Shown one piece after another: positions 619 through 21,517 of a stretch of DNA of 64,000 nucleotides; position 1 is the stretch's first letter, and each line of letters starts with the position of its first letter. This DNA is from Spirochaeta thermophila DSM 6578 (GTDB lineage: Bacteria > Spirochaetota > Spirochaetia > Winmispirales > Winmispiraceae): positions 434,001-498,000 of the forward strand of contig NC_017583.1 in NCBI RefSeq assembly GCF_000184345.1, given 5' to 3'. A program made the position numbers and the translations under genes. The notes below the pieces were generated by a model. That model worked only from the letters and a program-made list of their open reading frames with translations, had not been told where the DNA came from and ran no database searches.

Positions 619-761
619 TTTTCAAAAATTGGAAAAAGTAACGAAACCGAGAAAATGAAGAAATTCTTACCGAAACATAGTGTAGTTCTGATATTCCGAC
701 GTGTACCGGGTCATAATTTTTTCAATAAGTCGGTGGAACCAAGGGCATGGTGAGGGAAAAC

Positions 762-790
762 TTGACAGATGGGGCCGTGGGTGCGATAAA
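762..790 (+). promoter_or_regulatory. Sigma-70-type promoter of galA-galT-galK
   Basis: TTGACA (762-767), a 17-base spacer and GATAAA (785-790) make a near-consensus promoter. It lies inside the 5' extension of the longest possible alpha-galactosidase reading frame, so translation should begin downstream of it, at the GTG at 819. The 282 bases between the GH53 and GH36 starts otherwise hold only the GH53 promoter and AT-rich sequence. Confidence 0.65.
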
Positions 791-818
791 GGAGGAGATC
801 GGTGGTAAGGAGGAACAG

Positions 819-2504: not shown

Positions 2505-2506
2505 CT

Positions 2507-3481: not shown

Positions 3482-4511
3482 GGTGAATATCATCGGCGAG
3501 CACACCGACTACAACGATGGGTTCGTCCTCCCGTTTGCGATCGATCGGTGGATCGAGGTGGAGGTGGAGCCGTCGGATCGGTGGGTGGTGTGGTCTGAGA
3601 GGACGGGGGAGGAGGTGCCGTTCTCCCCTGATGAGCGGAGAGGTGACTGGTCGGACTATGTGGCCGGGGTGGTGTGGGCGTTGAGGAAGCGTGGTCTTTC
3701 GCTCAGGCGGGCCCGGCTCCTGGTGAGGGCCACGCTGCCGGATGGTGCGGGGCTCTCGAGTTCGGCGGCCCTGGAGGTGGCGACCGGGGCGGCGGTGTGT
3801 GCGGCGAGCGGGTACGAGCTGGACAGGGATCTCCTGGTGGAGGCGGCGTGGGAGGCGGAGAACGAGTTCGTGGGGATGCGGTGCGGGATCATGGATCAGT
3901 TCGTGGTGGCGCATGGGCGGGAGGGGCACGCGTTGCTCCTCGATACGCACACGCGCGAGTTCAGGCTGGTGCCGATTTCTCTTCCGGGGGCGGAGTTCTT
4001 CCTGGTGAACTCGGGGGTGAAGCACGAGCTGGCCTCCTCGGGGTACAACACGAGGCGGGCGGAGTGTGCGGCGGTGCTGGAGCGGCTGGGGAAGGGGAGT
4101 TTCAGGGAGGTGCGGCCGGAGGAGGTGGATGGGCTTCCCGATCCGCTCCGCCGGAGGGCGCGGCATGTGCTCACGGAGAACGAGCGTGTGATGCGGACGG
4201 TGGATGCCCTCGAAAGGGGGGATGTGGCGGAGGTGGGGAGGCTGCTCTCTGCCTCGCACCGGAGTCTCCGGGACGACTACGAGGTCTCCTGCGAGGAGAT
4301 CGACTGGTTGGTGGAGCGGGTGGAGGGTGTGGAGGGGGTGTACGGGGCTCGGATGGTGGGAGGGGGGTTCGGTGGCTCGGTGCTGGTGCTCGCGAGGGAG
4401 GGAGTGGCGGATGGGCTCGAGGGGGTGCTGGGGGAGTACGGGGCGCGGTGGGGGGTGGAGGCCGGGGTGCTGCGGGTGAGGAGCGCGGATGGGGTGGGGA
4501 GGGTGGACTGA
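3459..4511 (+). CDS. galK: Galactokinase
   Basis: GHMP-family kinase of 350 residues that phosphorylates galactose at C1. The galactokinase signature GRVNIIGEHTDYNDGFVLP is at the N-terminus, the ATP-binding GAGLSSSAALEVA follows near residue 95, and the C-terminal GHMP motif is GGGFGGSVL. The start ATG lies inside the end of galT and has AAGGAGG five bases upstream. Codon choice is unusually rich in G at third positions (many GTG, GGG and GAG codons), like the GH95 gene further on. No clear terminator was seen behind the gene. Confidence 0.94.
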   Translation: MRFRAPGRVNIIGEHTDYNDGFVLPFAIDRWIEVEVEPSDRWVVWSERTGEEVPFSPDERRGDWSDYVAGVVWALRKRGLSLRRARLLVRATLPDGAGLSSSAALEVATGAAVCAASGYELDRDLLVEAAWEAENEFVGMRCGIMDQFVVAHGREGHALLLDTHTREFRLVPISLPGAEFFLVNSGVKHELASSGYNTRRAECAAVLERLGKGSFREVRPEEVDGLPDPLRRRARHVLTENERVMRTVDALERGDVAEVGRLLSASHRSLRDDYEVSCEEIDWLVERVEGVEGVYGARMVGGGFGGSVLVLAREGVADGLEGVLGEYGARWGVEAGVLRVRSADGVGRVD

Positions 4512-4552: not shown

Positions 4553-4615
4553 AGCAACATCCCCCAATAAACGAGCAATATTTCCCACGACTCCACGGGA
4601 AAGAAGTCCTATCAT
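4553..4615 (+). promoter_or_regulatory. AraC-type promoter P1 (outer-membrane protein gene)
   Basis: Two direct half-sites, AGCAACATCCCCCA (4553-4566) and AGCAATATTTCCCA (4574-4587), begin 21 bases apart. A -10 box TATCAT (4610-4615) begins 36 bases after the start of the second half-site. No -35 box is visible at the normal distance (the window reads ACGACT), as expected for an activator-dependent promoter. The predicted transcript starts near 4622, about 47 bases before the gene. The same layout recurs at four other places in the window. Confidence 0.75.
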
Positions 4616-4668: not shown

Positions 4669-5781
4669 ATGAAAAAGGTGATTCTTTGTTGTGGAATGCT
4701 TCTTTCATTCCTCCTTCCTCTTTTTGGGGAGGTAGGCGCGAGTGCCTATATGACAGGTGAAGTGTGGGGTACGAATGGTTTCCTTCTCAATAACCAGGAG
4801 CAGAAGGACGATGACTCCCTCACTGTGTGGGTGAACGGGAAACGAGCCGGGATGTACTTTAGAGTGTGGGCGTATCCATTGGAGAACAATAAGGATAACC
4901 TGTTGAGGCTGAGATCAATAAAGGTGTGGTTCAAACCTATAGATGTAGTCACTGTCTCGGTGGGAAACGTAGGGTCTTATCTCTATACAGAGCAGCTAGA
5001 CTGGTGGCAAACACCTGCGGGTGCGAGTTATGCTCAGTATCAGGCATGGGATACTCGATGGTCCAACTACGCAGGATACGAAGGCGGAGGAGTGGGAGTG
5101 GAACTCTCTCCGATGGAGAATCTCTATCTTGCCTTTGGAATCACTCCGGGGTTTGGTACTCGATTCATGCAGGAAGGAGAGCTCATCTCCAATGATCTGA
5201 GATACGGAGCGGTGGTAAAATACTCCTTTCCAGGAATAGGATCGGTGGGAGCTTCTTTCCGAGATGATGGTTTCGGAGAAGGAACATCCGAGATACCCCA
5301 TGAGCAGAAAATCGCAAAGTTCGGATTCGACGTCTCCGCCATTGAGGGAATGTATGGATTCCTTCAATTTGTCTTCAGATTCGATACCAGTGCGTCCGCA
5401 TGGGGGACATCGGATGATCCCCTTGCGCTTCAAGGAATCTCACTCGATCCCTATTTCTCCTATTCGTTCGAAGATTTTTCCCTTCAGGCTCATATACCAC
5501 TCACCTTCCGACTTACTGGTGGATCTGATGACCCCTCGTACATGACATTTGATGTGAAAGTCTCATATGCACTCAGCACGTATATTCCTTATGTGAGGAT
5601 TCAGCAGCAGGGAGATGTTCCTCTTCTTTTCAATGAAGATTTCGCCTTTGAACCTCAATATAACATAGGAGTGGAGTGGGGGTTTGACGCCAACAGCTGG
5701 TTCGATGTGAGCCTCCAGATAGAGAATGTCGAGGGAAAGATTTCCTGGTGCATTCCTTTTTCTGCACGAGCGGGGTTCTGA
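4669..5781 (+). CDS. Predicted outer-membrane beta-barrel protein
   Basis: I do not recognise the family by name. The 370-residue protein has a clear signal peptide (MKKVILCCGMLLSFLLPLFG, cut near GASA) and then alternating strands rich in Tyr, Trp, Phe and Gly. It ends in Phe (FSARAGF), the usual end of outer-membrane barrels. The start is the ATG at 4669 with GAGGAGG upstream; the frame is open to 4546, but that stretch is the promoter. It lies between the galactose operon and the alpha-xylosidase under an AraC-type promoter, so I infer a porin that lets xyloglucan oligosaccharides cross the outer membrane. It is more AT-rich than its neighbours. Confidence 0.7.
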   Translation: MKKVILCCGMLLSFLLPLFGEVGASAYMTGEVWGTNGFLLNNQEQKDDDSLTVWVNGKRAGMYFRVWAYPLENNKDNLLRLRSIKVWFKPIDVVTVSVGNVGSYLYTEQLDWWQTPAGASYAQYQAWDTRWSNYAGYEGGGVGVELSPMENLYLAFGITPGFGTRFMQEGELISNDLRYGAVVKYSFPGIGSVGASFRDDGFGEGTSEIPHEQKIAKFGFDVSAIEGMYGFLQFVFRFDTSASAWGTSDDPLALQGISLDPYFSYSFEDFSLQAHIPLTFRLTGGSDDPSYMTFDVKVSYALSTYIPYVRIQQQGDVPLLFNEDFAFEPQYNIGVEWGFDANSWFDVSLQIENVEGKISWCIPFSARAGF

Positions 5782-5834: not shown

Positions 5835-5898
5835 AGCAATTTTGTCCATGTTCAGCACAAGATTGGCCAAGATGACGTGGGGAAAATTCGCATAGAAT
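5835..5898 (+). promoter_or_regulatory. AraC-type promoter P2 (GH31 alpha-xylosidase gene)
   Basis: The half-sites AGCAATTTTGTCCA (5835-5848) and CACAAGATTGGCCA (5856-5869) begin 21 bases apart. The -10 box TAGAAT (5893-5898) begins 37 bases after the start of the second half-site. No -35 box is seen at the expected place (AGATGA). The first copy fits the AGC-N7-TCCA core of the E. coli AraC half-site exactly; the second is weaker. Confidence 0.72.
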
Positions 5899-5955: not shown

Positions 5956-8241
5956 ATGAAGTTCACCGACGGGTACTGGCGGATGCGCAAGGGAGTGACT
6001 CCTTTTTTCCCTCGTACGGTGTGGGAGGTGATCAGGGAGGAGACAGAGGTAAAGGCTTATGTGCTCTGCACAGAGGTTCGACACAGGGGTGATACCCTCA
6101 ACGTCCCCCTCCTCACGGTGCGGATATGGTCGCCGAGGGAAGATGTCCTCGGTGTGGAAGTGGTACATCACCTCGGAGGAGTGCCCAAGGCCCCCGATCT
6201 CCTCCTCCCGGAGAGGAGGAGCCCCCTTCCCCTTCGGGTAGAGGAGGCCGAGGAGGCCCTGATGGTCTCTTCCGGGAGGCTTTCGGCGCGGCTCTCCACC
6301 ACCAGGTGGGGACTCGAGTTCCTGGGAGAGGGGCGGTTCCTCACCGACTCGAAGGAGAAGAACCTGGGTTATGTGGTCACTTCGGAGGGCGAGGCCTTCC
6401 TCCATGAGCAGTTACGGCTCAGTGTGGACGAGTTGATCTATGGTCTTGGTGAGCGTTTTACCCCGTTTGTCAAGAACGGCCAGGTGGTGGAGATATGGAA
6501 CGGTGATGGCGGGACGAGCAGCGAGCTCGCCTACAAGAACGTACCCTTCTACCTGAGCTCGAGGGGCTATGGGGTATTCGTGAACGATGCGGGCCCGGTC
6601 TCGTTCGAGGTGGGCTCGGAGAAGGTCTCCAGGGTTCAGTTCAGTGTGCCGGGCGAACGGCTCGAGTACTTCATCATATACGGGCCGGACCCTATGGAGG
6701 TGCTCGAGAAGTACACCGATCTTACCGGCAAGCCGGCCCTTCCTCCCGCCTGGTCGTTTGGTCTGTGGCTCACCACCTCCTTTATCACGGACTACGATGA
6801 TGCCACGGTACGGAGCTTTGTCACCGAGATGAAGGACCGGGGAATCCCCCTGAGTGTGTTTCACTTCGACTGTTTCTGGATGAAGGGACTCCACTGGACG
6901 AGCTTCCTCTGGGACAGGGAGCGGTTCCCCGATCCGGAGGGCCTCCTCGCCTGGCTCAAGGAACAGGGAGTACGCTCGTGCGTGTGGATCAATCCTTACA
7001 TCGCCCAGCAGTCGGAAGTCTTTATGGAAGGCCTTGAGGGTGGGTTCTTCCTCAAGAGGCCCGATGGCACGGTGTGGCAGACCGATGACTGGCAGGCGGG
7101 GATGGCGATCGTGGATTTCACCAATCCGCGCGCGCGTGAGTGGTTTGCCTCGAAGCTTGAGGACCTCCTGGAGATGGGGGTGGATTCCTTCAAGACCGAC
7201 TTCGGTGAGCGCATCCCGGTGGATGTGGTCTATTACGACGGGTCGGACCCTATTCGGATGCACAACTACTATTCGTTTCTCTATAATCGGACGGTATTTG
7301 AGGTGCTGGAGAGAAAGAGAGGACGGGGAGAGGCGGTCTGCTTTGCCCGTGCGACCACAGCAGGGGGACAGCAATTCCCGGTCCACTGGGGAGGCGACTG
7401 CGTCTCCACCTATGAGTCCATGGCAGAGAGTCTCCGCGGAGGGCTTTCCCTCATGTTCTCTGGATTTGCGTTCTGGAGTCACGACATAGGAGGATTCGAG
7501 AAGACCGCGACGCCCGACCTCTACAAGCGCTGGGTGGCCTTTGGGCTCCTCTCCTCCCACAGCAGGCTTCACGGGAACGAGTCCTACAGGGTGCCCTGGC
7601 TCTTCGACGAGGAGGCAGTGGAGGTGGTGCGCTTCTTCACCTCCCTCAAGCACCGCCTCATGCCCTATCTCTACACCGTAGCGGTTGAGGCCCATAGGCG
7701 GGGCGTGCCGGTGATGCGGCCTCTCCTCCTGGAGTTTCCAGCCGATCCTGGATGCCGCTACGTGGATAGGGAGTACCTGCTCGGTCCTGCGCTTCTCGTG
7801 GCCCCGGTCTTCAGCGAGAGCGGCGAGGTGGAGTTCTACCTTCCTCCAGGGCTCTGGCGCCACCTCCTCGATGGTGAGGTGCTCAGAGGGCCAGGGTGGT
7901 TCAGGAGGACATACGACTACTTTTCCCTTCCCCTCTTCCAGCGGGAAGGGTCGCTGGTGATCCTGGGGAGAGAAGAAGGGGCGGTGTACGACTACACGCG
8001 AGGGATTGTGTGTGAGGCTTTTCTGCCCTCGCCGGGTGTTGTCTCGTGGGAACAGGTGGATGCCCGGGGGAGGGGGGTAGCCTCGCTCCGACTCGAGAGA
8101 ATGGGAGAAAGGGTGAGGTTCGAGAGTAACGGGTTCTCAGAAGCGAGGCTGGTGGTACATGGGGATGCGGGAGAGGGATCTGTGGAATGTTCCCTCTCGA
8201 GAGAGGGGGAGGTGAGACTTCTCTCTGAAGAGGGACGGTAG
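5956..8241 (+). CDS. yicI: GH31 alpha-xylosidase (YicI type)
   Basis: Cytoplasmic retaining alpha-xylosidase of 761 residues that removes alpha-1,6-xylose from the non-reducing end of xyloglucan oligosaccharides. From memory it matches E. coli YicI over its full length, from the start MKFTDGYWRMRKGV on. The nucleophile Asp of FKTDFGERIP is at about residue 415 and the acid/base Asp of HWGGDC at about 481. VFHFDCFWMK and WSHDIGGFE are also conserved. I start at ATG 5956 because AGGAGG ends four bases before it; a GTG at 5953 would leave one base. There is no signal peptide, so its substrate must be imported. Confidence 0.95.
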   Translation: MKFTDGYWRMRKGVTPFFPRTVWEVIREETEVKAYVLCTEVRHRGDTLNVPLLTVRIWSPREDVLGVEVVHHLGGVPKAPDLLLPERRSPLPLRVEEAEEALMVSSGRLSARLSTTRWGLEFLGEGRFLTDSKEKNLGYVVTSEGEAFLHEQLRLSVDELIYGLGERFTPFVKNGQVVEIWNGDGGTSSELAYKNVPFYLSSRGYGVFVNDAGPVSFEVGSEKVSRVQFSVPGERLEYFIIYGPDPMEVLEKYTDLTGKPALPPAWSFGLWLTTSFITDYDDATVRSFVTEMKDRGIPLSVFHFDCFWMKGLHWTSFLWDRERFPDPEGLLAWLKEQGVRSCVWINPYIAQQSEVFMEGLEGGFFLKRPDGTVWQTDDWQAGMAIVDFTNPRAREWFASKLEDLLEMGVDSFKTDFGERIPVDVVYYDGSDPIRMHNYYSFLYNRTVFEVLERKRGRGEAVCFARATTAGGQQFPVHWGGDCVSTYESMAESLRGGLSLMFSGFAFWSHDIGGFEKTATPDLYKRWVAFGLLSSHSRLHGNESYRVPWLFDEEAVEVVRFFTSLKHRLMPYLYTVAVEAHRRGVPVMRPLLLEFPADPGCRYVDREYLLGPALLVAPVFSESGEVEFYLPPGLWRHLLDGEVLRGPGWFRRTYDYFSLPLFQREGSLVILGREEGAVYDYTRGIVCEAFLPSPGVVSWEQVDARGRGVASLRLERMGERVRFESNGFSEARLVVHGDAGEGSVECSLSREGEVRLLSEEGR

Positions 8242-8260
8242 AGCCCGTCCCTCTTTTTTT
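8229..8260 (+). terminator. Intrinsic terminator of the GH31 gene
   Basis: A perfect 10-bp stem, AGAGGGACGG (8229-8238) and CCGTCCCTCT (8245-8254), is closed by a 6-base loop and followed by seven T. The left arm runs up to the stop codon of the GH31 gene. Confidence 0.92.
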
Positions 8261-8280: not shown

Positions 8281-8343
8281 AGCAATATTGTCCAACTTTT
8301 GGCCAATATCTTCCTAGCCAGGGCATCGGGGGGGTGATACAAT
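8281..8343 (+). promoter_or_regulatory. AraC-type promoter P3 (GH3-araC-ABC operon)
   Basis: The half-sites AGCAATATTGTCCA (8281-8294) and GCCAATATCTTCCT (8302-8315) begin 21 bases apart. The -10 box TACAAT (8338-8343) begins 36 bases after the second one. No -35 box is present (TAGCCA). The first half-site is the consensus of the whole set. This promoter drives the operon that contains the AraC-family gene itself, which suggests positive feedback. Confidence 0.78.
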
Positions 8344-8357
8344 CGTGATACTGCCAT

Positions 8358-11201
8358 GTGTGTGAGGTGTATGTGAGGAGGGATGTTTCTCCAGGTCAAG
8401 AACTTTATAGAAACCCGGATCTTCCCCTCGAGGAGAGGGTGAACGATCTTGTCTCTCGCCTCACGCTGGAGGAGAAAATCTCCCTCATTCCTGTGCGTCA
8501 GGCGGCTGTTCCCAGGTTAGGGATCGATCCCTATCCCATTGGAGGAGAGGCAGCCCACGGTGTGGCATGGGTAGGTAAGGCCACGGTCTTCCCTCAGCCT
8601 GTAGGGCTTTCATGCACATGGGATAGGGATCTCCTTGGACGCATCGGCGAGGTGATAGGGGTGGAGGCACGGGCTTACCGGGATATCCTGGGGACCGAGT
8701 TCGGCCTTACCCTCTGGGCACCCACGGTGGACCTGGTGAGGGATCCCCGTTGGGGGAGGACCGAAGAGGCCTACGGTGAGGACCCGTGCCTTGCCTCGGA
8801 GCTCGCAGGAAGCCTGGTGAGGGGGATGCAGGGCGATCACCCCTTCTACCTCAGGATGGGAGCGACCCTCAAGCACTTCTTCGCAAACAACAACGAGACA
8901 GATCGGGGTATTTCCTCCTCCGAGATGCACCCCTGGCTCATGCACAACTACTACCTCGAGGTCTTCAGGCGGATCATAGAGAGGGCACGCGTCACGTGCA
9001 TCATGACCGCCTACAACGCGGTCAACGGCATACCATGCCTCATCCACCCTGCGGTGAAGAGGCTGGTGAAAGAGGAGTGGGGCCTTCCGGGCTTCGTGGT
9101 GACCGATGCAGCGGACTTCGGTATGACGGTGGGGATGCATGCCTATTTCGAGGATCACGTCGAATCCATCGCCGCCACCATCCGCTCCGGAGTGGATGCC
9201 ATCACCGAGGATGACCGCACCATCGTGATCGACTCCCTTCGCCATGCCCTGGAGCGAGGGCTCCTCAAAGAGGAAGACCTGGATACCGCGCTCAGGAACA
9301 TCTTCCGCATACGGTTCAGGCTTGGCGAATTCGATCCCCCAGATCGGAATCCCTACGCCGGTATCACGAAGGACGCCCTGTGTGCTCCTTCCCATGCCCG
9401 GATTGCCCGGGAAGCCGCTCAGAAAAGCGTGGTGCTCCTCAAGAACCGGGGCCTCCTCCCCCTGCACGCACATACTCTGAAGAGAGTGGCGGTGGTAGGT
9501 CCCCTTGCACATGAGGTGCACACCGACTGGTACAGCGGGACCCTCCCCTATGTAGTCACGCCCCTCGATGCCCTCAAGGAGCGGCTCACTGGTGCGGAGG
9601 TCTGGTATGAGGAAGGTTCCTCACGGGTGAGATTCCGATCTGCTGCCTACCACCGGTGGCTCGCATCAGACGAAAAGGGGAATATCTCCCTCTCCCCCCC
9701 GGGGGAAATACCGGCAGCAGAGGGCCTCTGGGACTGGCTCGATTGGGGGTGGGGAAGCCATACCTTCAGGTCCGTGGCCTCCCGGAGGTATCTCACCTGC
9801 GCGCCTGAAGGTACTCACCTCTCAGCCACAGCGGAACAGGTGCGCGGTTGGTTCGTCCAGGAGGTCTTTTCCCTTGAAGAACGTGTGGGAGGGCTCTATG
9901 CGATCCGCACCTGGCACGGGAAGTATCTTTCCTGTGATGTCTCGGGTAGGGTGCATCTCTCAGATCGGGCCGATACCATGCGCGAGCTGTTCGAACTCGA
10001 AGTGGTGGATGAGGGACTCGAGCGGGTCCGGGAACTGGCGGGGAAGGCTGATGTGGTCCTGGCCTTCTGCGGAAACAACCCCTACATCAACGGCAAGGAG
10101 ACCGTAGACCGTCCTGACCTCATCCTTCCTCCCCTCCAGCAGGCTCTGGTGCGTACTGCTTTTGAGGCGAATCCCCGCACCGCGCTTATCCTCATAGGGA
10201 GCTATCCGTTTTCGATTGCGTGGGAGGACGAACACCTCCCTGCCATCCTCTATTCCTCCCACGGCGGGCAGGAGATGGGTCGGGCGCTCACTGACGTGCT
10301 TTTGGGCGATGTTTCGCCCGCAGGACGCCTCAGCCTCACCTGGTATCGATCCTCCTCTGTGCTCTCGAGCATTTTCGACTACCAGATCCACAAGGGGCGA
10401 AGGACCTACTGGTATGCCCGTGAAGAGGACGTCCTCTACCCCTTTGGCTACGGCCTCTCCTATACGGAGTGTGTCTACACAGGTATGGAGTGCTCACCGT
10501 CACGACTCACGCCCGAGACAGAACTCACGGTCAAGGTGAGGGTGAGGAACGTGGGAGCTGTGGCCTCCGATGAGGTAGTACAGTGCTACCTCGTGCCGCC
10601 TGCAATGGGAGCATTCTCTCCCAGGAAGGTGCTGGTGCGGTTCGACCGGGTGCACCTGGTGCCGGGGGAAGAGAGAGAACTTACCTGGCTTCTTGCGGCC
10701 GGGGACTTCTCGTTCTGGCATCCTGCGGCCGGACGTCGCATCCCCATCCCAGGACGCTGGAAGGTCCAGGTGGGGTCGTCCTCTCGTGATATCCACCTTG
10801 AAGAGGAGGTCACCCTGGAGGCTTCCGGTCCTCCTTGCTGGACTGCAGGTACTCGCATCCCTGTCTCCCTGTGTGACGACTTCGAGGGCTGTAGGTTCGT
10901 GGAGGGGCGAGATCTCTACCCCGCACTCCGTCCCTCATCCGGAGCTACCGCCCGTGTGCGGTTCAAGAAGGTGGAGTGCGCGGCGGAGAGGCGAGAGATG
11001 CGTCTTCTCGTGAGGAATAGGGGGGAAGGAGCCGGGCTGCGTGTCGAATCCGGTATGAAGAGTGTGAATATTGCGAGTGCGCTTCCTTTCACAGGGGATG
11101 AGTGGAAGGAGGTGGTGATCCCCTTCCATTTCCCCTCGGGGAGCCATGACCTCTCGATCTCCTGGAGAGGGGAGGCCGAGATACTATGGATCGTTTTGTA
11201 A
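8358..11201 (+). CDS. GH3 beta-glycosidase with inserted beta-trefoil domain
   Basis: About 947 residues, without signal peptide, so cytoplasmic. The GH3 barrel domain covers about residues 1-330, with the nucleophile Asp in FVVTDAADFG near residue 250. The alpha/beta sandwich begins near 370 but is split: about residues 424-550 form a fascin-like beta-trefoil (YHRWLASDEKG, RYLTCAPEG, GKYLSCDVSGRV). A fibronectin-III-like domain and a further beta-rich C-terminal domain follow. The product is a beta-glucosidase or beta-xylosidase; in this place it most likely trims the glucan backbone of xyloglucan oligosaccharides. The start is uncertain: GTG 8358 lies only about 8 bases after the predicted transcript start, and GTG codons at 8367 and 8373 are alternatives. 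Confidence 0.88.
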   Translation: MCEVYVRRDVSPGQELYRNPDLPLEERVNDLVSRLTLEEKISLIPVRQAAVPRLGIDPYPIGGEAAHGVAWVGKATVFPQPVGLSCTWDRDLLGRIGEVIGVEARAYRDILGTEFGLTLWAPTVDLVRDPRWGRTEEAYGEDPCLASELAGSLVRGMQGDHPFYLRMGATLKHFFANNNETDRGISSSEMHPWLMHNYYLEVFRRIIERARVTCIMTAYNAVNGIPCLIHPAVKRLVKEEWGLPGFVVTDAADFGMTVGMHAYFEDHVESIAATIRSGVDAITEDDRTIVIDSLRHALERGLLKEEDLDTALRNIFRIRFRLGEFDPPDRNPYAGITKDALCAPSHARIAREAAQKSVVLLKNRGLLPLHAHTLKRVAVVGPLAHEVHTDWYSGTLPYVVTPLDALKERLTGAEVWYEEGSSRVRFRSAAYHRWLASDEKGNISLSPPGEIPAAEGLWDWLDWGWGSHTFRSVASRRYLTCAPEGTHLSATAEQVRGWFVQEVFSLEERVGGLYAIRTWHGKYLSCDVSGRVHLSDRADTMRELFELEVVDEGLERVRELAGKADVVLAFCGNNPYINGKETVDRPDLILPPLQQALVRTAFEANPRTALILIGSYPFSIAWEDEHLPAILYSSHGGQEMGRALTDVLLGDVSPAGRLSLTWYRSSSVLSSIFDYQIHKGRRTYWYAREEDVLYPFGYGLSYTECVYTGMECSPSRLTPETELTVKVRVRNVGAVASDEVVQCYLVPPAMGAFSPRKVLVRFDRVHLVPGEERELTWLLAAGDFSFWHPAAGRRIPIPGRWKVQVGSSSRDIHLEEEVTLEASGPPCWTAGTRIPVSLCDDFEGCRFVEGRDLYPALRPSSGATARVRFKKVECAAERREMRLLVRNRGEGAGLRVESGMKSVNIASALPFTGDEWKEVVIPFHFPSGSHDLSISWRGEAEILWIVL

Positions 11202-11224
11202 GCACAGAGAAGAGGAGTGAGCTC

Positions 11225-12142
11225 ATGGAACCCATCCTTCATCCTGAGGACAAGGAAGATCGGAGACATGGGACCGAGGATTTCCCGTTTGCCCTTTACG
11301 ATAACTATTTGCGTTATCCATACTTCAGTCGCTACACCATAGATCCTCACTGGCACGAGGAGATGGAGTTTCTCCTGGTGGTGCGGGGGAACGCCCGGGT
11401 GCTCAGGGATGGAGAGTTCGTGGAGGTAGGAGAGGGAGAGGCCCTCTTCATCCCTCCCAGGACCTTTCACGCCGCCGAATCACTCGACCACCAGCCCTTC
11501 CACTTCATCGCCCTGGTCTTCCATCTCGACCTCCTGGAGGGGGAGGTCCAAGACGTATGCCACAAGCGTTACTTCACAGGGATCAAAAAGCGGCTCCTCT
11601 CGTTCCCCGGGGTGATCTCACGCAAGACCCTGTGGGGAAAGGCCGTTCTTCATGAGCTCATGGAGGTGGTGGATCTCGCAGATCACAAGGGGCCGGGATA
11701 CGAGTTGGGTATCAAGGGGGCCCTGTTCAAGGTCTTCTCCCTCATCTTCTCGAACGGGGTGGTCCAGAAATCCGAGGTTGCAGGCGATGTCTATGCCGTG
11801 GAGAAGATCCTCCCTGCGCTCGAGTACATCAAGGAACACTATCAGGAGGAGATCTCGGTGGATGACCTGGCGAAGTTGGTCTACCTCAGCAAGTACCATT
11901 TCATCAGGGAGTTCAAGCGACTCACGGGAAGGACGCCGGTGGCGTTCATCAACCGTTACAGGGTTCATAAGGCCATGGCCATGCTCATTGAGAGCGACGA
12001 GAAGGTGCTCAACGTGGCGTACGAGTGCGGATTCAACGATATGAGCTACTTCATCCGGCTCTTCCACAGGTTCACGGGACTCACCCCGGCCCAGTACCGG
12101 CGGGCCTATGCCCCCCGGGCGGTGAAGACCGGTGGAAGGTGA
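11225..12142 (+). CDS. AraC-family transcriptional regulator
   Basis: A regulator of 305 residues. The N-terminal half is a cupin-type sensor domain (DPHWHEEMEFLLVVRGNARV, GEALFIPPRTFH). The C-terminal 100 residues form the double helix-turn-helix domain: ISVDDLAKLVYLSKYHFIREFKRLTG, then VAYECGFNDMSYFIRLFHRFTGLTP and the end motif PAQYRR. I start at ATG 11225, with GAGGAG seven bases upstream; an ATG at 11186 would overlap the GH3 gene. It sits between GH3 and the ABC importer in one operon. I infer that it is the activator binding the five 21-bp direct-repeat promoters and that an imported xyloglucan sugar is the signal. Both points are inference. Confidence 0.9.
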   Translation: MEPILHPEDKEDRRHGTEDFPFALYDNYLRYPYFSRYTIDPHWHEEMEFLLVVRGNARVLRDGEFVEVGEGEALFIPPRTFHAAESLDHQPFHFIALVFHLDLLEGEVQDVCHKRYFTGIKKRLLSFPGVISRKTLWGKAVLHELMEVVDLADHKGPGYELGIKGALFKVFSLIFSNGVVQKSEVAGDVYAVEKILPALEYIKEHYQEEISVDDLAKLVYLSKYHFIREFKRLTGRTPVAFINRYRVHKAMAMLIESDEKVLNVAYECGFNDMSYFIRLFHRFTGLTPAQYRRAYAPRAVKTGGR

Positions 12143-12179
12143 TGACACGGAGGAACAGTTTTATGAAAGGAGATGAGTG

Positions 12180-13139
12180 ATGCCTGCGAGTGTAGTGCAC
12201 CACGCGAAGACCTCTTCTTCGCTTAGAGGGGGGACCTCCTGGTGGTCCACGCTGGTCAATCAGCGATACCTCATACTCATGTCGTTCCCCTTTGTGATAT
12301 GGGTGATCATCTTCAGGTATCTGCCCCTCTGGGGTTGGACCATGGCCTTTCAGGATTACAAGCCAGGCCTTTCTTTCTTCCAGCAGAAGTGGGTGGGGCT
12401 CAAATATTTCATCATCCTCTTCCAAGATCTCAAGTTCTGGGAGGTGATGAGGAACACCCTCGCCATGAGCCTCCTGGGTCTCGCCTTTGGCTTCACCCTC
12501 CCTATCGTGCTCGCCCTCTTCCTCAACGAGATACGGCACATGTTCTTCAAGCGTGTGATCCAGACCATCACCTACCTGCCGCACTTCCTCTCCTGGGTGA
12601 TCGTGGCGAGCCTGGTCTTCCAGATGCTCGGTCCTTCGGGGCCCCTCAACGAGTTTCTCCTCTCTCTGGGGGTGGTGAAGGAGCCGGTCCCCTTCCTCAC
12701 GAAGCCTCATTATTTCTGGTGGGTCGTGACCTTCTCTGATGTCTGGAAGGAAATAGGATGGAACTCCATCATCTTCCTCGCGGCGATCGCCGGCATAGAC
12801 CCGGAGCTCTACGAGGCTGCCACCATGGACGGGGCAGGGAGGTTCAGGAAGATGTGGCACATCACCCTTCCGGGGATCATGCCCACGGTGATCGTGATAC
12901 TCATCATGAGTATCGGGAACCTCATCAATATCGGCTTCGAGAAACAGTTCCTCCTGAGGACTCCCCTCACCAAGGAGTATGCGGACGTGCTCGACCTGTA
13001 TGTGCTCGACTACGGGATAGGAAGCGGGCGGTATGCCCTGGGGACGGCCGCGGGGATCTTCAAGTCGGTGGTGAGCCTCATCCTCCTCTTCACGGTGAAT
13101 CGGCTCAGCAAGAAGACCACAGGCATGCGGGTGCTGTAG
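12180..13139 (+). CDS. CUT1 sugar ABC transporter permease (LplB type)
   Basis: Inner-membrane permease of 319 residues with about six hydrophobic segments. The EAA loop that contacts the ATPase reads ELYEAATMDGAGRFRKMWHI followed by TLPG, at about residues 225-245. The ATG at 12180 has AAGGAG seven bases upstream; a GTG directly before it is less likely. It is the first of two permease genes followed by a binding protein. No ATPase gene is nearby, which is common in this family where a shared ATPase serves several importers. Position in the GH3-araC operon suggests import of xyloglucan oligosaccharides. Confidence 0.92.
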   Translation: MPASVVHHAKTSSSLRGGTSWWSTLVNQRYLILMSFPFVIWVIIFRYLPLWGWTMAFQDYKPGLSFFQQKWVGLKYFIILFQDLKFWEVMRNTLAMSLLGLAFGFTLPIVLALFLNEIRHMFFKRVIQTITYLPHFLSWVIVASLVFQMLGPSGPLNEFLLSLGVVKEPVPFLTKPHYFWWVVTFSDVWKEIGWNSIIFLAAIAGIDPELYEAATMDGAGRFRKMWHITLPGIMPTVIVILIMSIGNLINIGFEKQFLLRTPLTKEYADVLDLYVLDYGIGSGRYALGTAAGIFKSVVSLILLFTVNRLSKKTTGMRVL

Positions 13140-13149
13140 GAGGTAGGTG

Positions 13150-14076
13150 ATGCAGTCGGTGATGGTAAGGGAACGCTACAGAAGGGCGAAGCGAGGGGAT
13201 GCCCTCTTCAATGCCTTCAACTATACGGCCATGATCCTCCTGGGGATCGCGACCCTCTATCCCTTTCTCAATGTCCTCGCCATATCCCTCAACGATTCTG
13301 TGGACACGGTGCGGGGAGGTATCACCATCTTTCCGAGAAAATTCACCCTGGAGAACTACGCCTACCTGTTCAGCTATCCGAGTGTGGTGAGGGGTGCGGT
13401 GATGTCCGTGTTGAGGACCGCAGTGGGGACGGTGACGGGACTGGTCTCCACCGCGATGGTGGCCTATGCGATAAGCCGGAGGGACTTCTTCGCGCGCAGG
13501 TTCGTCACCGGGATCTTCGTGATGACCATGTACATAAGCGCGGGACTCATCCCGGACTACATGCTCATACGATCGCTGGGGCTCATCAACAACTTCTTGG
13601 TGTACATCCTCCCCGGACTCATCAGTGCCTTCAACGTGATCGTCCTGCGGTCGTACATCGAGGGACTGCCGTACGAGCTCCAGGAGTCGGCCAAGATCGA
13701 TGGGGCGAACGACTTCGTGATCTTCTCACGGGTGGTGATGCCCTTGTGTCTCCCTGTGCTTGCCACCATCGCACTCTTCATCGCCGTAGGACACTGGAAC
13801 TCGTGGTTCGACACCTATCTCTACGCGAGTTCCAACAAGTACCTCACGACCCTCCAGTTCGAACTTCAGAAGATCCTCACCAACGTCCAGTCCCAGGCCG
13901 CGGCCTCGGCCCAGGATATCTACAGCTATGCCCTCACCGAGCAGACCCGGAGGGTCTCTCCTGAGTCCATCCGTATGGCGATGACCATCGTGGCCACGGT
14001 GCCCATCCTCTGTGTGTATCCCTTCCTCCAGAAGTACTTCACCAGGGGGCTGGTGCTCGGGGCCTTGAAACAGTAG
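13150..14076 (+). CDS. CUT1 sugar ABC transporter permease (YtcP type)
   Basis: Second inner-membrane permease of the importer, 308 residues, with six predicted membrane segments. The EAA motif ELQESAKIDGANDFVIFSRV with VMPLCLP follows the standard pattern. The C-terminus YFTRGLVLGALKQ is typical of this subfamily. AGGAGGT lies six bases before the ATG at 13150. It starts 10 bases after the first permease gene and is followed by the binding protein after 48 bases. Confidence 0.92.
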   Translation: MQSVMVRERYRRAKRGDALFNAFNYTAMILLGIATLYPFLNVLAISLNDSVDTVRGGITIFPRKFTLENYAYLFSYPSVVRGAVMSVLRTAVGTVTGLVSTAMVAYAISRRDFFARRFVTGIFVMTMYISAGLIPDYMLIRSLGLINNFLVYILPGLISAFNVIVLRSYIEGLPYELQESAKIDGANDFVIFSRVVMPLCLPVLATIALFIAVGHWNSWFDTYLYASSNKYLTTLQFELQKILTNVQSQAAASAQDIYSYALTEQTRRVSPESIRMAMTIVATVPILCVYPFLQKYFTRGLVLGALKQ

Positions 14077-14124
14077 GCGAGCCGCCCGTCGGGCGGAATG
14101 TATACCTTAACCAGGAGGTGTCTG

Positions 14125-15795
14125 ATGAAGAGACTGCTGCCTCTCATCCTCCTTATCCCCATGGTGGTGTTCGCCACGGGTCAGGGGGAGAAAGCCGCCG
14201 AGACTACGGTCGGCACCAAGACGCCGATCACGTTCACCATGTTCAACGCAGAGGTGAACCCCAACTGGGACGAGTTCCAGAGTCCGGTAGCCCAGGAGAT
14301 CAAGAAGCGCACTGGGGTGACGCTGGAGATCGAGTTCGCCGTGGGTGATCCCAAGCAGAAGCTCGCGGTGATGGCCGCGAGCGGCGACTACCCGGATCTG
14401 GTCTACGCCAAGGGGGATCTCAACCTGCTCAAGGATGCAGGCGGAATCCTCCAGCTCGACGAACTCATCGACCAGTACGGTCCCAATTTGAAGAAGATGT
14501 ACGGCCAGTTCTACGATCGGCTCAGATGGAGCAAGGAAGATCCCCACATCTACTACGTGGGAAGCTATCCTGTCCACGACCCGATCATCGTGCCCAACGG
14601 ACTCTTCTGGCTCCAGCACGCCGTGGTCCTCGAGCTGGGTTTCCCCCGTCTCGAGACTCTCAAGGATTTCGAGAATGCGATCAAGACCTACCATGCGAAA
14701 CATCCCACGATCAATGGGCAGCCCACCATCCCCATGACACTGCTCGCCGACGGGTGGCGCTTCCTCATCTCGGTGACCAACCCGGCGTGGGCTGCCACGG
14801 GTGGATCGGACGACGGTGAGTGGTATGTGGATCAGACCACCTTCCGTGCGGTGCGCCACCACACCCGGGAGATCGAACGGGAGTACTTCAGGTGGCTCAA
14901 CCACATGTGGAACGAGGGGCTCCTTGATAAGGAGAGCTTCATCCAGAAGTACGATCAGTACAAGGCCAAGATCGCCTCAGGTCGTGTGCTCGCATTGGCT
15001 GATGCGGGGTGGGAGATCTCAGAGCCTGTCACTGCACTGAGGCAGGCAGGGATGGAAGAACGGATGTACGGCCAGTACCCCATCGTTATCAGCGAGGACG
15101 TGGTATGCCGGGTGAACCAGTCTCCGGGATATACGGGCGGATGGGGCGTCGCCCTCACCGTGGACTGCAAGGACCCCGCGAGGGCCATCGAGTTCCTCGA
15201 CTGGTTGGCGACCGAGGAGGCGCAGATACTCACCCACTGGGGTATCGAGGGTGTCCACTGGAAGTACGACGAGAACGGCAAACGGGTCTTCCTTCCCGAG
15301 ATCGACGAGATGCGGCGGACCGACCCCGCTTTTTCCAAGAAGACGGGCATAGGGAACTACAGCTATCCCTTCCCGCAGTGGGGCCGCATCAAGGATTCCA
15401 CCGGAAACTACATCATGCCTGACAGTGAGCCAGAGGACCAGATCAAGAACTATACCGAGGTGGAAAAGAAGGTCCTCGCCGGCTACGGAGCCAGGATGTG
15501 GATGGATCTCTTCCCCGGACCGGATGAGTTCCCGCCCAAACCCTACGGCGCTGCGTGGATGGTTCGCATAGACGATTCCGATCTCGTGGCCATCGACAAC
15601 AGGGTGCGTGACGATATAGGGATGAGGAGAATCCCCGAGGCGATCATGGCGCCGCCCGAGAAGTTCGACGAAATCTGGGACGCCTACCTCAAGGAGATGG
15701 AAGAGGCCGGTCTCCCCAGGCTTACCGAAGAGTTCAACCGTCTCCTGAGAGAGCGGATAGAGCTCTGGAATCCAGGCTTCCAGTTCCCGGAGTGA
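14125..15795 (+). CDS. Extracellular sugar-binding protein of the ABC importer
   Basis: Solute-binding protein of 556 residues, long as usual for partners of LplB/YtcP permeases. The signal peptide MKRLLPLILLIPMVVFA is probably cut before TGQGEKAAE; there is no lipobox cysteine. Typical family features are LAVMAASGDYPDLVYAKGD near the N-terminus and VALTVDCKDPARAIEFLDWL in the second lobe. AGGAGGTG lies upstream of ATG 14125. By position it binds xyloglucan oligosaccharides in the periplasm, which is inference. A strong terminator ends the operon behind it. Confidence 0.9.
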   Translation: MKRLLPLILLIPMVVFATGQGEKAAETTVGTKTPITFTMFNAEVNPNWDEFQSPVAQEIKKRTGVTLEIEFAVGDPKQKLAVMAASGDYPDLVYAKGDLNLLKDAGGILQLDELIDQYGPNLKKMYGQFYDRLRWSKEDPHIYYVGSYPVHDPIIVPNGLFWLQHAVVLELGFPRLETLKDFENAIKTYHAKHPTINGQPTIPMTLLADGWRFLISVTNPAWAATGGSDDGEWYVDQTTFRAVRHHTREIEREYFRWLNHMWNEGLLDKESFIQKYDQYKAKIASGRVLALADAGWEISEPVTALRQAGMEERMYGQYPIVISEDVVCRVNQSPGYTGGWGVALTVDCKDPARAIEFLDWLATEEAQILTHWGIEGVHWKYDENGKRVFLPEIDEMRRTDPAFSKKTGIGNYSYPFPQWGRIKDSTGNYIMPDSEPEDQIKNYTEVEKKVLAGYGARMWMDLFPGPDEFPPKPYGAAWMVRIDDSDLVAIDNRVRDDIGMRRIPEAIMAPPEKFDEIWDAYLKEMEEAGLPRLTEEFNRLLRERIELWNPGFQFPE

Positions 15796-15816
15796 TCCGG
15801 GATACGGTACCTCCTG

Positions 15817-15846
15817 CCCTGCCGGCGCAGAGCCGGCAGGGTTTTT
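15817..15846 (+). terminator. Intrinsic terminator of the GH3-araC-ABC operon
   Basis: A perfect 10-bp stem, CCCTGCCGGC (15817-15826) and GCCGGCAGGG (15832-15841), with a 5-base loop, is followed by five T. It starts 21 bases after the binding-protein stop codon. Confidence 0.93.
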
Positions 15847-15870
15847 GTATGCAGGTGTAGTACAGGTTTC

Positions 15871-15933
15871 CGCAATTTCGTTCGCACAATGCGCAACATT
15901 CGCAAAGACCGATCCTCTCAACAGCTCCATAAT
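15871..15933 (+). promoter_or_regulatory. AraC-type promoter P4 (lipoprotein-GH74 operon)
   Basis: The half-sites CGCAATTTCGTTCG (15871-15884) and CGCAACATTCGCAA (15892-15905) begin 21 bases apart, and the -10 box CATAAT (15928-15933) begins 36 bases after the second. No -35 box is seen (AAGACC). The half-sites diverge most from the consensus, but they keep the invariant CA and T and the exact geometry. The gene starts 28 bases after the -10 box. Confidence 0.65.
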
Positions 15934-15961
15934 AGACGTATGAGAAAAGAGGAGGATGTCT

Positions 15962-16510
15962 ATGAAGAGGCATGTGAAGCTTCTTTGGTGGGTCCTCTTT
16001 TGGGGAGTACTCTTCCTTCTTCCCTCATGTGTCACTGTTTCCACTCCAGCTGGCCACGCAGAGGAAAATGAGACGGTGAGGGAAGGTGTTGCTGTCGAGG
16101 AGGGGATCCTCCTTCCCATCGTACGGGTACGGGCGGATGGTGCGCGCAGGGATGAGGGATCCCTCGTGTATGTGGAGTTCTCTGGGGAGAGCGGAGGCAT
16201 CTACTTTGACATCGAGCCTCCGGTGGATCTCTCGGGGTATGCAAACCTGCTCATACCGGTGAAGCTCACTGGAGGTGCCACTTTTGTCATCACGACTGCG
16301 GATGCCAACTGGAACAGTGCCTGGACTGCAGGCTGGGGAGCCCTCTACGGCACAGGGGAGTGGGAGACCATTATCATCGATATCACCAACCTCTCCCAGG
16401 CCTGGGGAAACATGGAGTGGGATCCAAGCCGGGTCTCCTCCATGGGAATTGTGTTGAATAGAGGATCTTCCATCGTGTTCGACACCTCACGAGGCATACG
16501 GGCTGAATGA
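15962..16510 (+). CDS. Lipoprotein with beta-sandwich, carbohydrate-binding-like domain
   Basis: A protein of 182 residues and unknown family. The signal WWVLFWGVLFLLPSC ends in a lipobox (LLPSC), so it is a lipoprotein. The rest is a single domain of about 120 residues with strands rich in aromatic residues and the pattern VDLSGYANLLIPVKL, GTGEWETIIIDITNL, WDPSRVSSMGIVL, similar in style to galactose-binding-like folds of carbohydrate-binding modules. I start at ATG 15962, six bases after GAGGAGG; the ATG at 15956 directly abuts it. It lies just before the GH74 gene and shares its promoter P4. I infer a surface glycan-binding protein; no catalytic site was recognised. Confidence 0.6.
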   Translation: MKRHVKLLWWVLFWGVLFLLPSCVTVSTPAGHAEENETVREGVAVEEGILLPIVRVRADGARRDEGSLVYVEFSGESGGIYFDIEPPVDLSGYANLLIPVKLTGGATFVITTADANWNSAWTAGWGALYGTGEWETIIIDITNLSQAWGNMEWDPSRVSSMGIVLNRGSSIVFDTSRGIRAE

Positions 16511-16520
16511 GGGGGCTCCA

Positions 16521-18902
16521 GTGAAAATGAAGATCGTATCTTTAGTGCTGCTTGTCATCCTCCTTTTCAGTGTGGGATTCCTCGCTACTGCGTGCGTCTC
16601 CCCTTCTGTAACAGAGGAGGGAGGAGTAACAGATACGCGAGGGATTAGGACGATGAAGCAGGTGAAGGTCGTAGGTGGAGGGTATATCCCCGGGATCATT
16701 TTCAATCCCTCGGAGAAGGATCTCTGGTACCTCCGTACCGATATAGGAGGGGCTTATCGATGGGATCCCTCCTCTAAAAAGTGGATCCCTCTCATCGACT
16801 TTCTGGGACCTGAGGACTATGACCAGTATGGTATTGCGAGTATCGCAACCGATCCAGTGGAGCCGAACAGACTCATCATCGCCGCGGGGATGTATACCAC
16901 TGATTGGACCGAGGGGCCTGCCGAGATGCTCGTCTCGGAGGACTATGGAGAGACTTTTACCCGAGTAGAGATGCCGTTCCGGATGGGCGGTAACATGCCG
17001 GGGAGGGGGATGGGAGAGCGGCTCGCCATCGATCCAAACGATAACAGGATCGTGTATTTCGGTTCCTTCGGTCAAGGACTCTGGAGATCGAGAGATCACG
17101 GTTATACCTGGGAACGTGTGGAGTCGTTCCCGGTGACAGGCAATGTCTATGATGCAGATTTCTACACCTATGTGGGGCACAAGTTCTTCTACGGGATTCC
17201 ATGGGTGGTCTTTGATCCGACTTCTGGAGAGCTGGGTGAGGGATCGAAGCATATATACGTAGGGGTGATCGATACCGGTCCCACAATCTATGAATCCCTG
17301 GACGGGGGGGACTCCTGGCACCCTCTGGAAGGTCAGCCAGGCAAGATTTTCGAGGGAGTGAAGGAACACGGTCTCCTCTCCTCGAACGATCCATTGGGGA
17401 AATACTATCCGGTGAAGGGGATCTACTCTCCTGAAGGGGCCCTGATCGTGGCCTACCATGCGGGGTGTGGTCCGTTCAATTCAAGCTATGAGGGTGGGGC
17501 GATATGGAAATTTTCCTTCAACACGAGGACATGGGAGGATATCTCCCTTCCTCCCCATGATCCGGATCCTTCGCATCGTACGAACGATAGGGGTGTGGGT
17601 GCAGTGGCCGTGGACTGGCAGCATCCTCAGGTCTTGGTGGCGTCCACCCTTAATGAGTGGTGGCCTGATGAGATCCTCTATCGCAGCACCGATGGTGGAA
17701 AGACGTGGAAACCGATATGGGAGATCACTGAATGGCCTACCAGGGTGGATCACTACACCCTCGATTACTCCCTGGCTCCCTGGCTCGACTGGGGGACCCG
17801 AAAGGCCCCTCCCGAGGAAAGTCCAAAGCTTGGATGGATGATCACTGCGCTCGCCATAGATCCCTTCAACTCCGATGTCATGATGTATGGGACAGGAGCA
17901 ACCCTCTACCGAACCGAGAATCTCACTGCCTGGGATAGAGGTGAGAAGGTTCACATCTTTGTGGGGGCTGAAGGTATTGAAGAGACTGCGGTGCTCGATC
18001 TCGAGAGTCTCCCGGAGGGGGCACCACTCGTGAGCGGTATGGGAGATATAGGTGGGTTCGTTCACTTTGAACTTGATAAGGCACAGCCTATGATCACGAA
18101 TCCTTACATAGGCTCGGTGAGTGATGTGGACTTTGCTGAGCATGTCCCCTCGATCATCATCCGGATGGGGGATGGAACCCTCGGGGTGAGTAGAGACGGG
18201 GGAAAGACGTGGAAGCCGGTGCCCCGGAAACTCAAAGGGACGAGCAAGAATTGGGGGGGCTCGGCGGCCATCTCTGCCGATGGTACGACGATTGTGTGGG
18301 CTCCTCCAGGAGAGGAGGGGGTGGAGATCATCCCCCACTGGTCCTCTGACTATGGTCGAACCTGGACTCCCTGTGAAGGGCTCCCTCCTTTTGCAAAGGT
18401 CATCTCTGATCGGGTGAACCCCTCCCGATTCTATGCCTACAAGGATGGGGTATGGTACGAGAGTACTGATGGGGCGAGATCATTCGTGTTGGTGAACGAG
18501 ATCGATTTCAAGGTGGATCCATCTCTTATTACGGAGCTCAACATGCGGGCGGTGTTTGGGAAGGAAGGCCATCTCTGGGTGGCTGCGGGAAAAAGAGGAC
18601 TCCTCCGTTCAAAGGATGGGGGTAAAACGTGGGAACGTATTCCTGGGGTGGAGTGGGCCCGGGCTGTAGGGTTCGGAAAGGCCGCCTCTGACAGTCACTA
18701 CCCTGCAGTGTACACCCAGATGAAGTATCGGGGTGGGTGGGGGGTGTGGCAGTCGGATGACGAAGGGAAGACCTGGCTTCGAGTGAACGACTCTTCTCAA
18801 CAGTGCGGCGTCGCGATGTGTATCACGGGGGATCGTCGGGTTTATGGCCGAGTGTATATGGGAACAAACGGGAGGGGGATCGTGTACTGGGAGTTCGAAT
18901 AG
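16521..18902 (+). CDS. GH74 xyloglucanase lipoprotein
   Basis: Surface-anchored enzyme of 793 residues that cuts the beta-1,4-glucan backbone of xyloglucan. The signal sequence ends in a spirochaete-type lipobox (FLATAC). The fold is two seven-bladed propellers, visible as repeated blade motifs such as SEDYGETF, SRDHGYTW, STDGGKTW, SRDGGKTW and SKDGGKTW. The catalytic pair is the Asp of YLRTDIGGAYRWD near residue 74 and of SGMGDIGGF near 509. A GTG start at 16521 is chosen because GAGGGGG lies five bases upstream. Endo-acting and reducing-end-specific members cannot be told apart by eye. The gene follows the lipoprotein gene after 10 bases. Confidence 0.93.
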   Translation: MKMKIVSLVLLVILLFSVGFLATACVSPSVTEEGGVTDTRGIRTMKQVKVVGGGYIPGIIFNPSEKDLWYLRTDIGGAYRWDPSSKKWIPLIDFLGPEDYDQYGIASIATDPVEPNRLIIAAGMYTTDWTEGPAEMLVSEDYGETFTRVEMPFRMGGNMPGRGMGERLAIDPNDNRIVYFGSFGQGLWRSRDHGYTWERVESFPVTGNVYDADFYTYVGHKFFYGIPWVVFDPTSGELGEGSKHIYVGVIDTGPTIYESLDGGDSWHPLEGQPGKIFEGVKEHGLLSSNDPLGKYYPVKGIYSPEGALIVAYHAGCGPFNSSYEGGAIWKFSFNTRTWEDISLPPHDPDPSHRTNDRGVGAVAVDWQHPQVLVASTLNEWWPDEILYRSTDGGKTWKPIWEITEWPTRVDHYTLDYSLAPWLDWGTRKAPPEESPKLGWMITALAIDPFNSDVMMYGTGATLYRTENLTAWDRGEKVHIFVGAEGIEETAVLDLESLPEGAPLVSGMGDIGGFVHFELDKAQPMITNPYIGSVSDVDFAEHVPSIIIRMGDGTLGVSRDGGKTWKPVPRKLKGTSKNWGGSAAISADGTTIVWAPPGEEGVEIIPHWSSDYGRTWTPCEGLPPFAKVISDRVNPSRFYAYKDGVWYESTDGARSFVLVNEIDFKVDPSLITELNMRAVFGKEGHLWVAAGKRGLLRSKDGGKTWERIPGVEWARAVGFGKAASDSHYPAVYTQMKYRGGWGVWQSDDEGKTWLRVNDSSQQCGVAMCITGDRRVYGRVYMGTNGRGIVYWEFE

Positions 18903-20597: not shown

Positions 20598-21517
20598 TTA
20601 TCCATTATTTGCCACCCGGGAGTACTCTCTAAGTACCTCCAGCAGAAGCTCGAATAGATCCTCCTCCCTATGATTATACCGCCACTCCAATTCTTTCAAG
20701 TAGAGCGGAAAACGTTCTACACTCACCCCGTGATGCTGGAGCAGCCGCCCTTTCGCATAACTCCAAAACCCCTCTATCCCATTGATGTACACTTTCCCAT
20801 TCGCAAATCGCTTCCCGTGATCAATCCGCTTGTGCCTGAATCCATAGCTCACAAGCCCATCATAGCTCTTGAACCGGTCGGTATACACAAGCGACCCCCG
20901 CTTCACTTTGGCCACTGCCAGTCGTACAAGCTCCTCCGCACTTACCTGCTCCACCACTTCCACCTGCACTTTTCCCCCTCGCTCAAGAATCCCAAACACA
21001 GGAATCTTCCCTGCCGCCCCTCTCCCCCTCTTCCCCTTTCTCTTTCCTCCAAAATAACTTTCGTCCATCTCTACTTCACCTTCGAGCAGGCTCTTCCCCT
21101 CCTTCTGGGTGTGGACCCATATCGCCTTCCGAAACAATGTGTAGAGCCTCAGCGTCACCTCATAGGAGAGCCGTAACTGCAAAGCCGCCTTGTGGGCGGT
21201 AACTTCCATCTCAAAGAGCTTCATTGCCCACAGGATCTTCTCCCAGGAGAGCTTCATCCCCTCGAAGATGCTCCCTCGTCGTATGCTCCACTCTTTCCTG
21301 CACTGGTAGCACTTGTACTTCTCTCGTCTCACCTCGCCTATATGCTCACTTCCACAGAAGGGACACCGGGTGTACGTGACGAGGAGACCTTTCTCTCTCA
21401 GATAGGAGACCGTTTTCTCTCTATCGCTTGCAAGTGTTGAAAGACTTACGACGTCCATATCCGTGCCACCTCTCTCTTCGGTATTATACCACAGGTGGCT
21501 CAAAAATGGTAATCACC
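20593..21517 (-). mobile_element. IS1595-type insertion sequence
   Basis: A 925-bp element with imperfect terminal inverted repeats of about 24 bp. The left end reads GGTGATTATCCATTATTTG then CCACC; the right end, read inward, is GGTGATTACCATTTTTGAG then CCACC. It carries one transposase gene on the minus strand. The eight bases outside the two ends (TACCAATT and TTGTTTTT) do not match, so no target duplication remains. A deletion next to the element probably removed the 3' part of the interrupted gene. Confidence 0.85.
20598..21458 (-). CDS. IS1595-family transposase
   Basis: 286 residues. An N-terminal zinc ribbon (CPFCGSEHIGEVRREKYKC with a second CxxC pair) is followed by the DDE-type catalytic domain: EMDESYFGGKRKG for the first Asp, VYTDRFKSYDGL for the second, and NGIEGFWSYAKGRL for the third position. 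I start at ATG 21458, with GAGAGGTGG upstream; an in-frame ATG at 21503 lies within the right inverted repeat and is less likely. The gene looks intact, so the element may still be able to move. Confidence 0.88.
   Translation of the reverse strand: MDVVSLSTLASDREKTVSYLREKGLLVTYTRCPFCGSEHIGEVRREKYKCYQCRKEWSIRRGSIFEGMKLSWEKILWAMKLFEMEVTAHKAALQLRLSYEVTLRLYTLFRKAIWVHTQKEGKSLLEGEVEMDESYFGGKRKGKRGRGAAGKIPVFGILERGGKVQVEVVEQVSAEELVRLAVAKVKRGSLVYTDRFKSYDGLVSYGFRHKRIDHGKRFANGKVYINGIEGFWSYAKGRLLQHHGVSVERFPLYLKELEWRYNHREEDLFELLLEVLREYSRVANNG

Follow-up and report, generated by a model that had tools for sequence, protein, structure and literature searches.

The window (i.e., the whole stretch of DNA analyzed; 64,000 nt of a 2.56-Mb genome; G000:C1:434001-498000) contains a gene cluster that encodes, from left to right, a GH36 alpha-galactosidase, GalT, GalK, a secreted protein, a GH31 enzyme, a GH3 enzyme, an AraC-family regulator, two ABC permeases, and a binding protein, followed by a strong terminator, a small lipoprotein-like gene, and a GH74 enzyme. 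Unless stated otherwise, the features described here are on the plus strand. The secreted protein (370 amino acids; positions 4669 to 5781), whose gene follows the promoter designated P1, is probably located in the outer membrane (signal peptide, mostly beta, terminal Phe). The next gene, behind P2, encodes a YicI-type GH31 alpha-xylosidase (5956 to 8241), and an intrinsic terminator (8227 to 8256) separates it from the third promoter, P3 (8282 to 8343). P3 lies upstream of five co-directional genes, which encode a GH3 beta-glucosidase/beta-xylosidase-type enzyme (8367 to 11201; ORF from GTG 8358), the AraC-family regulator (11225 to 12142; ORF from ATG 11186), ABC permease 1 (12177 to 13139), ABC permease 2 (13147 to 14076), and a homologue of xyloglucan-oligosaccharide binding proteins (14125 to 15795; ORF from 14098). 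The GH3 start at GTG 8367 is the one common to the sister species (G001), whose regulator is 97% identical, while ATG 11225 of the regulator gene has a better ribosome site than ATG 11186. An intrinsic terminator (15816 to 15842; 11 pairs, 9 of them GC) closes the operon, and the order and direction of the genes from P3 to this point agree with the initial annotation. The unit behind the fourth promoter, P4, begins with the small lipoprotein-like protein (15962 to 16510; no family) and continues with the GH74 endo-xyloglucanase (16521 to 18902). No ATPase gene was seen alongside the permeases; importers of this class usually have none at that place. The GH3 protein carries a fascin-like insert (PF06268; ORF residues 477 to 548) inside the match to the GH3 C-terminal domain model. 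To the right of the cluster, an IS1595-like transposase gene (family assigned by eye) occupies positions 20598 to 21503 of the minus strand.

Database matches are informative about the substrate. The binding protein closely matches 9PMY (675 bits), its closest solved relative, which is Athe_2052 of Anaerocellum (Caldicellulosiruptor) bescii and was the subject of work on how an ABC transporter recognizes xyloglucan oligosaccharides (PMC12710961). This match provides a strong predicted link between the operon and xyloglucan oligosaccharide import, as had been proposed for the importer. The GH31 protein scored 1147 bits against the NCBIfam alpha-xylosidase equivalog (cut-off, 606) and 889 bits against YicI, and the GH74 protein scored 697 bits against 2cn2, which carries the annotation beta-1,4-xyloglucan hydrolase. 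No family was found for the P1 protein, and its structure model was unusable (pLDDT, 35.5). Its best homologue (39%) is in spirochete G147, which also has a GH31-GH3-importer locus, located on a different contig from that homologue.

The regulator consists of an N-terminal cupin/AraC-binding domain (PF02311, 45 bits; PF07883, 42 bits) and a C-terminal paired helix-turn-helix (HTH) region (PF12833, 87 bits; PF00165, 83 bits), and the domain search gave no receiver domain. Its PDB match to Escherichia coli XylR covers the HTH region only.

Each of P1 to P4 has two copies of GCAAYATTnnCC at a spacing of exactly 21 bp. The P1 operator (4554 to 4586; an exact match to the pair pattern) is a tandem of GCAACATCCCCC (4554 to 4565) and GCAATATTTCCC (4575 to 4586), and its -10 element, TATCAT (4610 to 4615), begins 35 bp downstream of the first base of the proximal copy. 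At P2, GCAATTTTGTCC (from 5836) and ACAAGATTGGCC (from 5857) form the operator (5836 to 5868), with TAGAAT (5893 to 5898) as the -10 element at 36 bp. The P3 operator (8282 to 8314) consists of GCAATATTGTCC (8282 to 8293) and CCAATATCTTCC (8303 to 8314), followed by TACAAT (8338 to 8343) at 35 bp, and that of P4 (15872 to 15904) consists of GCAATTTCGTTC (from 15872) and GCAACATTCGCA (from 15893), followed by CATAAT (15928 to 15933), also at 35 bp. The statement that P3 carries the best half-site holds, with one correction: the distal copy, GCAATATTGTCC, has the top score of all half-sites in the window by matrix scan (19.3), and the P3 pair is the best-scoring pair (35.4). However, this half-site is one of two tandem copies, and the single half-site reading is replaced by that of a tandem pair, with the same 21-bp spacing at all four promoters.

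Independently of the motif, we asked which pair of 8-mers the four promoters best share when the spacing may take any value from 12 to 32. The result was GCAATATT, with a spacing of 21 bp and 10 mismatches, compared with 18.7 ± 0.93 mismatches (minimum, 15) in 300 dinucleotide shuffles, none of which reached 10. At P1 to P4, the best -10 element (i.e., one mismatch to TATAAT) is located 35 to 36 bp beyond the first base of the proximal copy, which none of 5,000 shuffles matched, and the same placement was observed at the three promoters of the sister species. The copies thus lie at about -68 to -57 and -47 to -36. The hexamer at the -35 position of P3 is TAGCCA, which is nonconsensus, and the -35 hexamers are poor at all four promoters. 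At araI1-I2 of araBAD, AraC binds direct-repeat half-sites 21 bp apart, the proximal one of which adjoins a poor -35 element. The predicted geometry of P1 to P4 shares the 21-bp direct repeat, the proximal copy by the -35 position, and the poor hexamer with this layout, and corresponds to a class II AraC-type activator placed directly against the -35 element.

An inverted-repeat model also scored well (12 mismatches versus 10 for the direct repeat) because the half-site core, AATATT, is self-palindromic. This score and the almost palindromic P3 would suit LacI/ROK-like repressor operators, at which induction would be derepression. We consider that reading highly improbable, since the direct-repeat model scores slightly better and also fits P1 and P4, where no clear palindrome was apparent, and the palindromic operator was rejected on these grounds. 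In addition, the sites are located 5' of the -35 position and off the promoter core, the -35 hexamers deviate from the consensus, and we noted no LacI/ROK regulator among the genes of the cluster. P1 to P4 are therefore presumably activated rather than repressed.

Exact copies of the paired sites are confined to this locus. The exact pair pattern matched three times in the genome, each time at this locus, with P4 among the one-mismatch matches, and the only two exact matches in the sister genome were its P2 and P3. By matrix score, the four sites of the window reached 27.6 to 35.4, while the next independent site reached 11.7. Given that the pattern and the matrix were trained on these sites, it is their restriction to this locus and their conservation that are informative. 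Site identity with the sister species was 33/35 at P3, 30/35 at P2, and 24/35 at P4, compared with 18/35 upstream of P3, 17/45 and 23/72 in the P2 flanks, and 13/25 in the P4 flank. The sequence between the P2 site and its -10 element is almost wholly changed in the sister species, and a -10 element (TATACT) is still found at +35. The sister species has lost GH74 and lacks the P1 gene. Its P4 operator and -10 element are kept, followed by only the last 35 GH74 codons (G001 region L095, 15843 to 15991, compared with window positions 15846 to 18802), and no other GH74 copy was found in its genome. The matrix scan revealed no site pair at positions 1 to 4511 of the window (i.e., the GH53-like/GH36/galT/galK side); thus, galactose handling seems to be outside the xyloglucan regulon. 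As a candidate for a regulon extending beyond the locus, we inspected the setting of one other low-mismatch pair, the one-mismatch pair at G000:C1:754369-754400, which is identical in the sister genome. This candidate was rejected, as the pair runs across the start codon of a gene for a ROK-type sugar kinase, where an activator would not be expected to bind.

Full-length homologues of the regulator (35 to 39% for the best) are encoded in clostridial, Paenibacillus, Thermobacillus, and Saccharibacillus genomes. Of the closer ones examined in Firmicutes, most are divergent from an orthologue of the GH31 gene here (54 to 60% identical), some of them with GH3 nearby. The motif-free test applied to these divergent regions yielded a different pair, TATTTTGA, at 21 bp with 6 mismatches (shuffles, 15.4 ± 0.96; 0 of 100 reached 6). 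The exact spirochete half-site was absent from Firmicutes and from another spirochete by matrix scan, and only the 21-bp spacing is common. In spirochete G070, a relative of the regulator is divergent from GH74 and lies beside GH3 and GH31. The regulator groups with its Firmicutes and G070 relatives in a single supported clade (97/92), to which most of the other AraC proteins tested do not belong. Among the divergent GH31/AraC regions (L071 to L075), those of Saccharibacillus also contain a cre-like box, TTTGGAAACGATTTCATA, which suggests CcpA-type catabolite control of the homologous regulator there.

These comparisons bear on the identity of the protein that binds the tandem sites. The genome has nine HTH_18 genes, one of them approximately 5.5 kb to the left of the window, and the importer of some relatives is preceded by genes for an apparent sensor kinase and an AraC-type response regulator. 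Another protein, e.g., one of the eight other AraC-type proteins, might therefore bind the sites, with the regulator of the operon merely carried along. However, the exact site pairs are confined to a cluster in which this gene is the only AraC-type regulator (and, in the window, the only HTH_18 gene), and in other genomes its homologues are found next to GH31 or GH74, with 21-bp repeats alongside in the case of Firmicutes. Binding by another regulator is thus very unlikely, and the AraC-family protein encoded behind P3 is presumably the one that binds the P1 to P4 sites.

Autoregulation further depends on how the regulator gene is transcribed. Its gene is downstream of a promoter with sites presumed to be its own, and neither a terminator nor a promoter was predicted in between. 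Specifically, there was no sigma-70-like site of at least 9/12 on the plus strand from 8360 to 15815 and no strong terminator between P3 and 15816, and the gene order from GH3 to the binding protein is intact in the sister species. A single transcript from P3 would therefore span the operon. A separate promoter for the regulator gene had been named as the finding that would speak against autoregulation, and the sigma-70-like site scan and the sister comparison gave no credible internal promoter for it. A weak one of an unusual type is conceivable. If read-through or a weak constitutive promoter within GH3 accounted for most of the araC expression, there would be no meaningful autoregulatory loop, and the feedback through import would stay. 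The regulator does need basal expression, E. coli xylR has both kinds of promoter, and a weak sigma-70-like site (7/12; 11044 to 11072) is the best one upstream of araC. However, the sister species lacks this site, and the 300 bp ahead of araC are only about half conserved between the two species, among the least conserved stretches of the operon. Moreover, the operon is tightly packed, and a leaky P3 would give basal levels. We accordingly regard mainly independent expression of the regulator as unlikely.

Since the regulator gene shares its operon with the importer genes, behind a promoter with paired activator-type sites, the regulator very probably boosts its own production. The earlier proposal that the AraC-family gene lies in an operon under its own control is well supported by the paired sites, their class II geometry, the status of the gene as the sole AraC-type regulator of the cluster, the lack of a conserved internal promoter, and an arrangement kept in the sister species. 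Positive autoregulation of the P3 operon is, as far as the DNA sequence can tell, the probable wiring. In the mechanism that we propose, leaky transcription from P3 would supply a few molecules of the regulator and importer. Xyloglucan would be cut outside the cell, with GH74 as the obvious candidate enzyme, and the imported oligosaccharide or its product would load the cupin domain in the cytoplasm. A xyloglucan-derived sugar (i.e., an oligosaccharide or a breakdown product) would presumably be the inducer. The loaded regulator would bind the two tandem P3 half-sites and recruit sigma-70 RNA polymerase at a promoter with a poor -35 element, as at araI1-I2. It would likewise activate P1, P2, and P4, which precede the genes for the outer-membrane-like protein, the alpha-xylosidase, and the lipoprotein with GH74, respectively, so that the regulator, importer, and enzymes would rise together. 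As both the regulator and the importer would be produced from the regulator-activated P3, two positive feedbacks are expected (i.e., more sensor and more inducer import), while the consumption of the sugar by GH31 and GH3 would constitute a counter-loop. Switch-like induction, as initially suggested, is possible; such feedback loops are switch-like or bistable only in some parameter regimes, depending on kinetics (PMC7205307).

This wiring is of a known kind, with E. coli xylFGHR and C. bescii xylSQ as close precedents. In E. coli, xylR lies in the xylFGH operon, and tandem XylR sites adjoin the -35 element. Similarly, the sequence here predicts an AraC-type activator that is encoded with the ABC importer of its inducer and turns it on (for XylR and xylFGH, see Song and Park 1997, as cited in PMC8647362 and PMC7205307). 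The two systems differ in the sugar, in the ligand domain (LacI/periplasmic-binding type in XylR and cupin here), and in the glycosidase gene present in the operon here. Unlike AraC, which represses its own divergent promoter, the regulator here is encoded downstream of the promoter that it would activate. In C. bescii, the AraC-family regulator XylQ is predicted to control xylSQ, an operon made up of its own gene and that of an alpha-xylosidase, AxuRS is predicted to control the importer axuABC, and the search model of that study included tandem-repeat sites with a 21-bp period (PMC8579813). By this description, both XylQ and the present regulator belong to the AraC family and are tied to a GH31 alpha-xylosidase (here in the same cluster), and the C. 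bescii alpha-xyloside importer includes Athe_2052, to which the binding protein here is closest among solved structures. In contrast to the two regulators that divide the C. bescii locus, a single one-component regulator is encoded within the importer operon here, and sites presumed to be its own are also found ahead of GH31, GH74, and the outer-membrane-like gene. In Ruminiclostridium cellulolyticum, the two-component system XygS/XygR is encoded in a xyloglucan cluster (PMC4780118). That system, like the regulator predicted here, acts positively on xyloglucan import and catabolism, with its genes in the induced cluster alongside GH31 and GH3, but it consists of a sensor kinase and a response regulator, whereas the one-component sensor here is presumably cytoplasmic. 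XygSR is reportedly the subject of Kampik 2020.

The position of the regulator gene distinguishes this locus from those of its relatives. A response regulator-like gene precedes the homologous importer in Thermobacillus and in spirochete G175, where a sensor kinase-like gene does so as well (all assigned by eye). Of the genomes seen, the sister species alone likewise has a one-component regulator within the importer operon, and this placement is thus a local rearrangement. More tentatively, a single one-component AraC regulator may have displaced the two-component system of the importer (i.e., the one that precedes the homologous importer in some other spirochetes and Firmicutes) and moved in, which would place the whole xyloglucan locus under one doubly self-amplifying loop with all-or-none induction of the population; we consider this full scenario possible but rather doubtful. 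Given that other regulators serve the homologous importer in C. bescii and R. cellulolyticum, the choice of regulator seems exchangeable around a conserved set of enzymes and transporters, as this comparison suggests.

For a thermophilic spirochete that degrades plant polysaccharides, the analysis thus provides a predicted regulon of xyloglucan use, complete with coordinates, in the form of a four-promoter, one-regulator circuit. No such regulon was found for spirochetes of this type in our literature search. Within the P3 operon, the intercistronic stretch 5' of the binding-protein gene (14077 to 14124) contains a GC hairpin and is identical in the sister species (48/48), while the neighboring coding DNA differs. 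The hairpin is possibly an mRNA-stabilizing element that sets the level of the binding protein.
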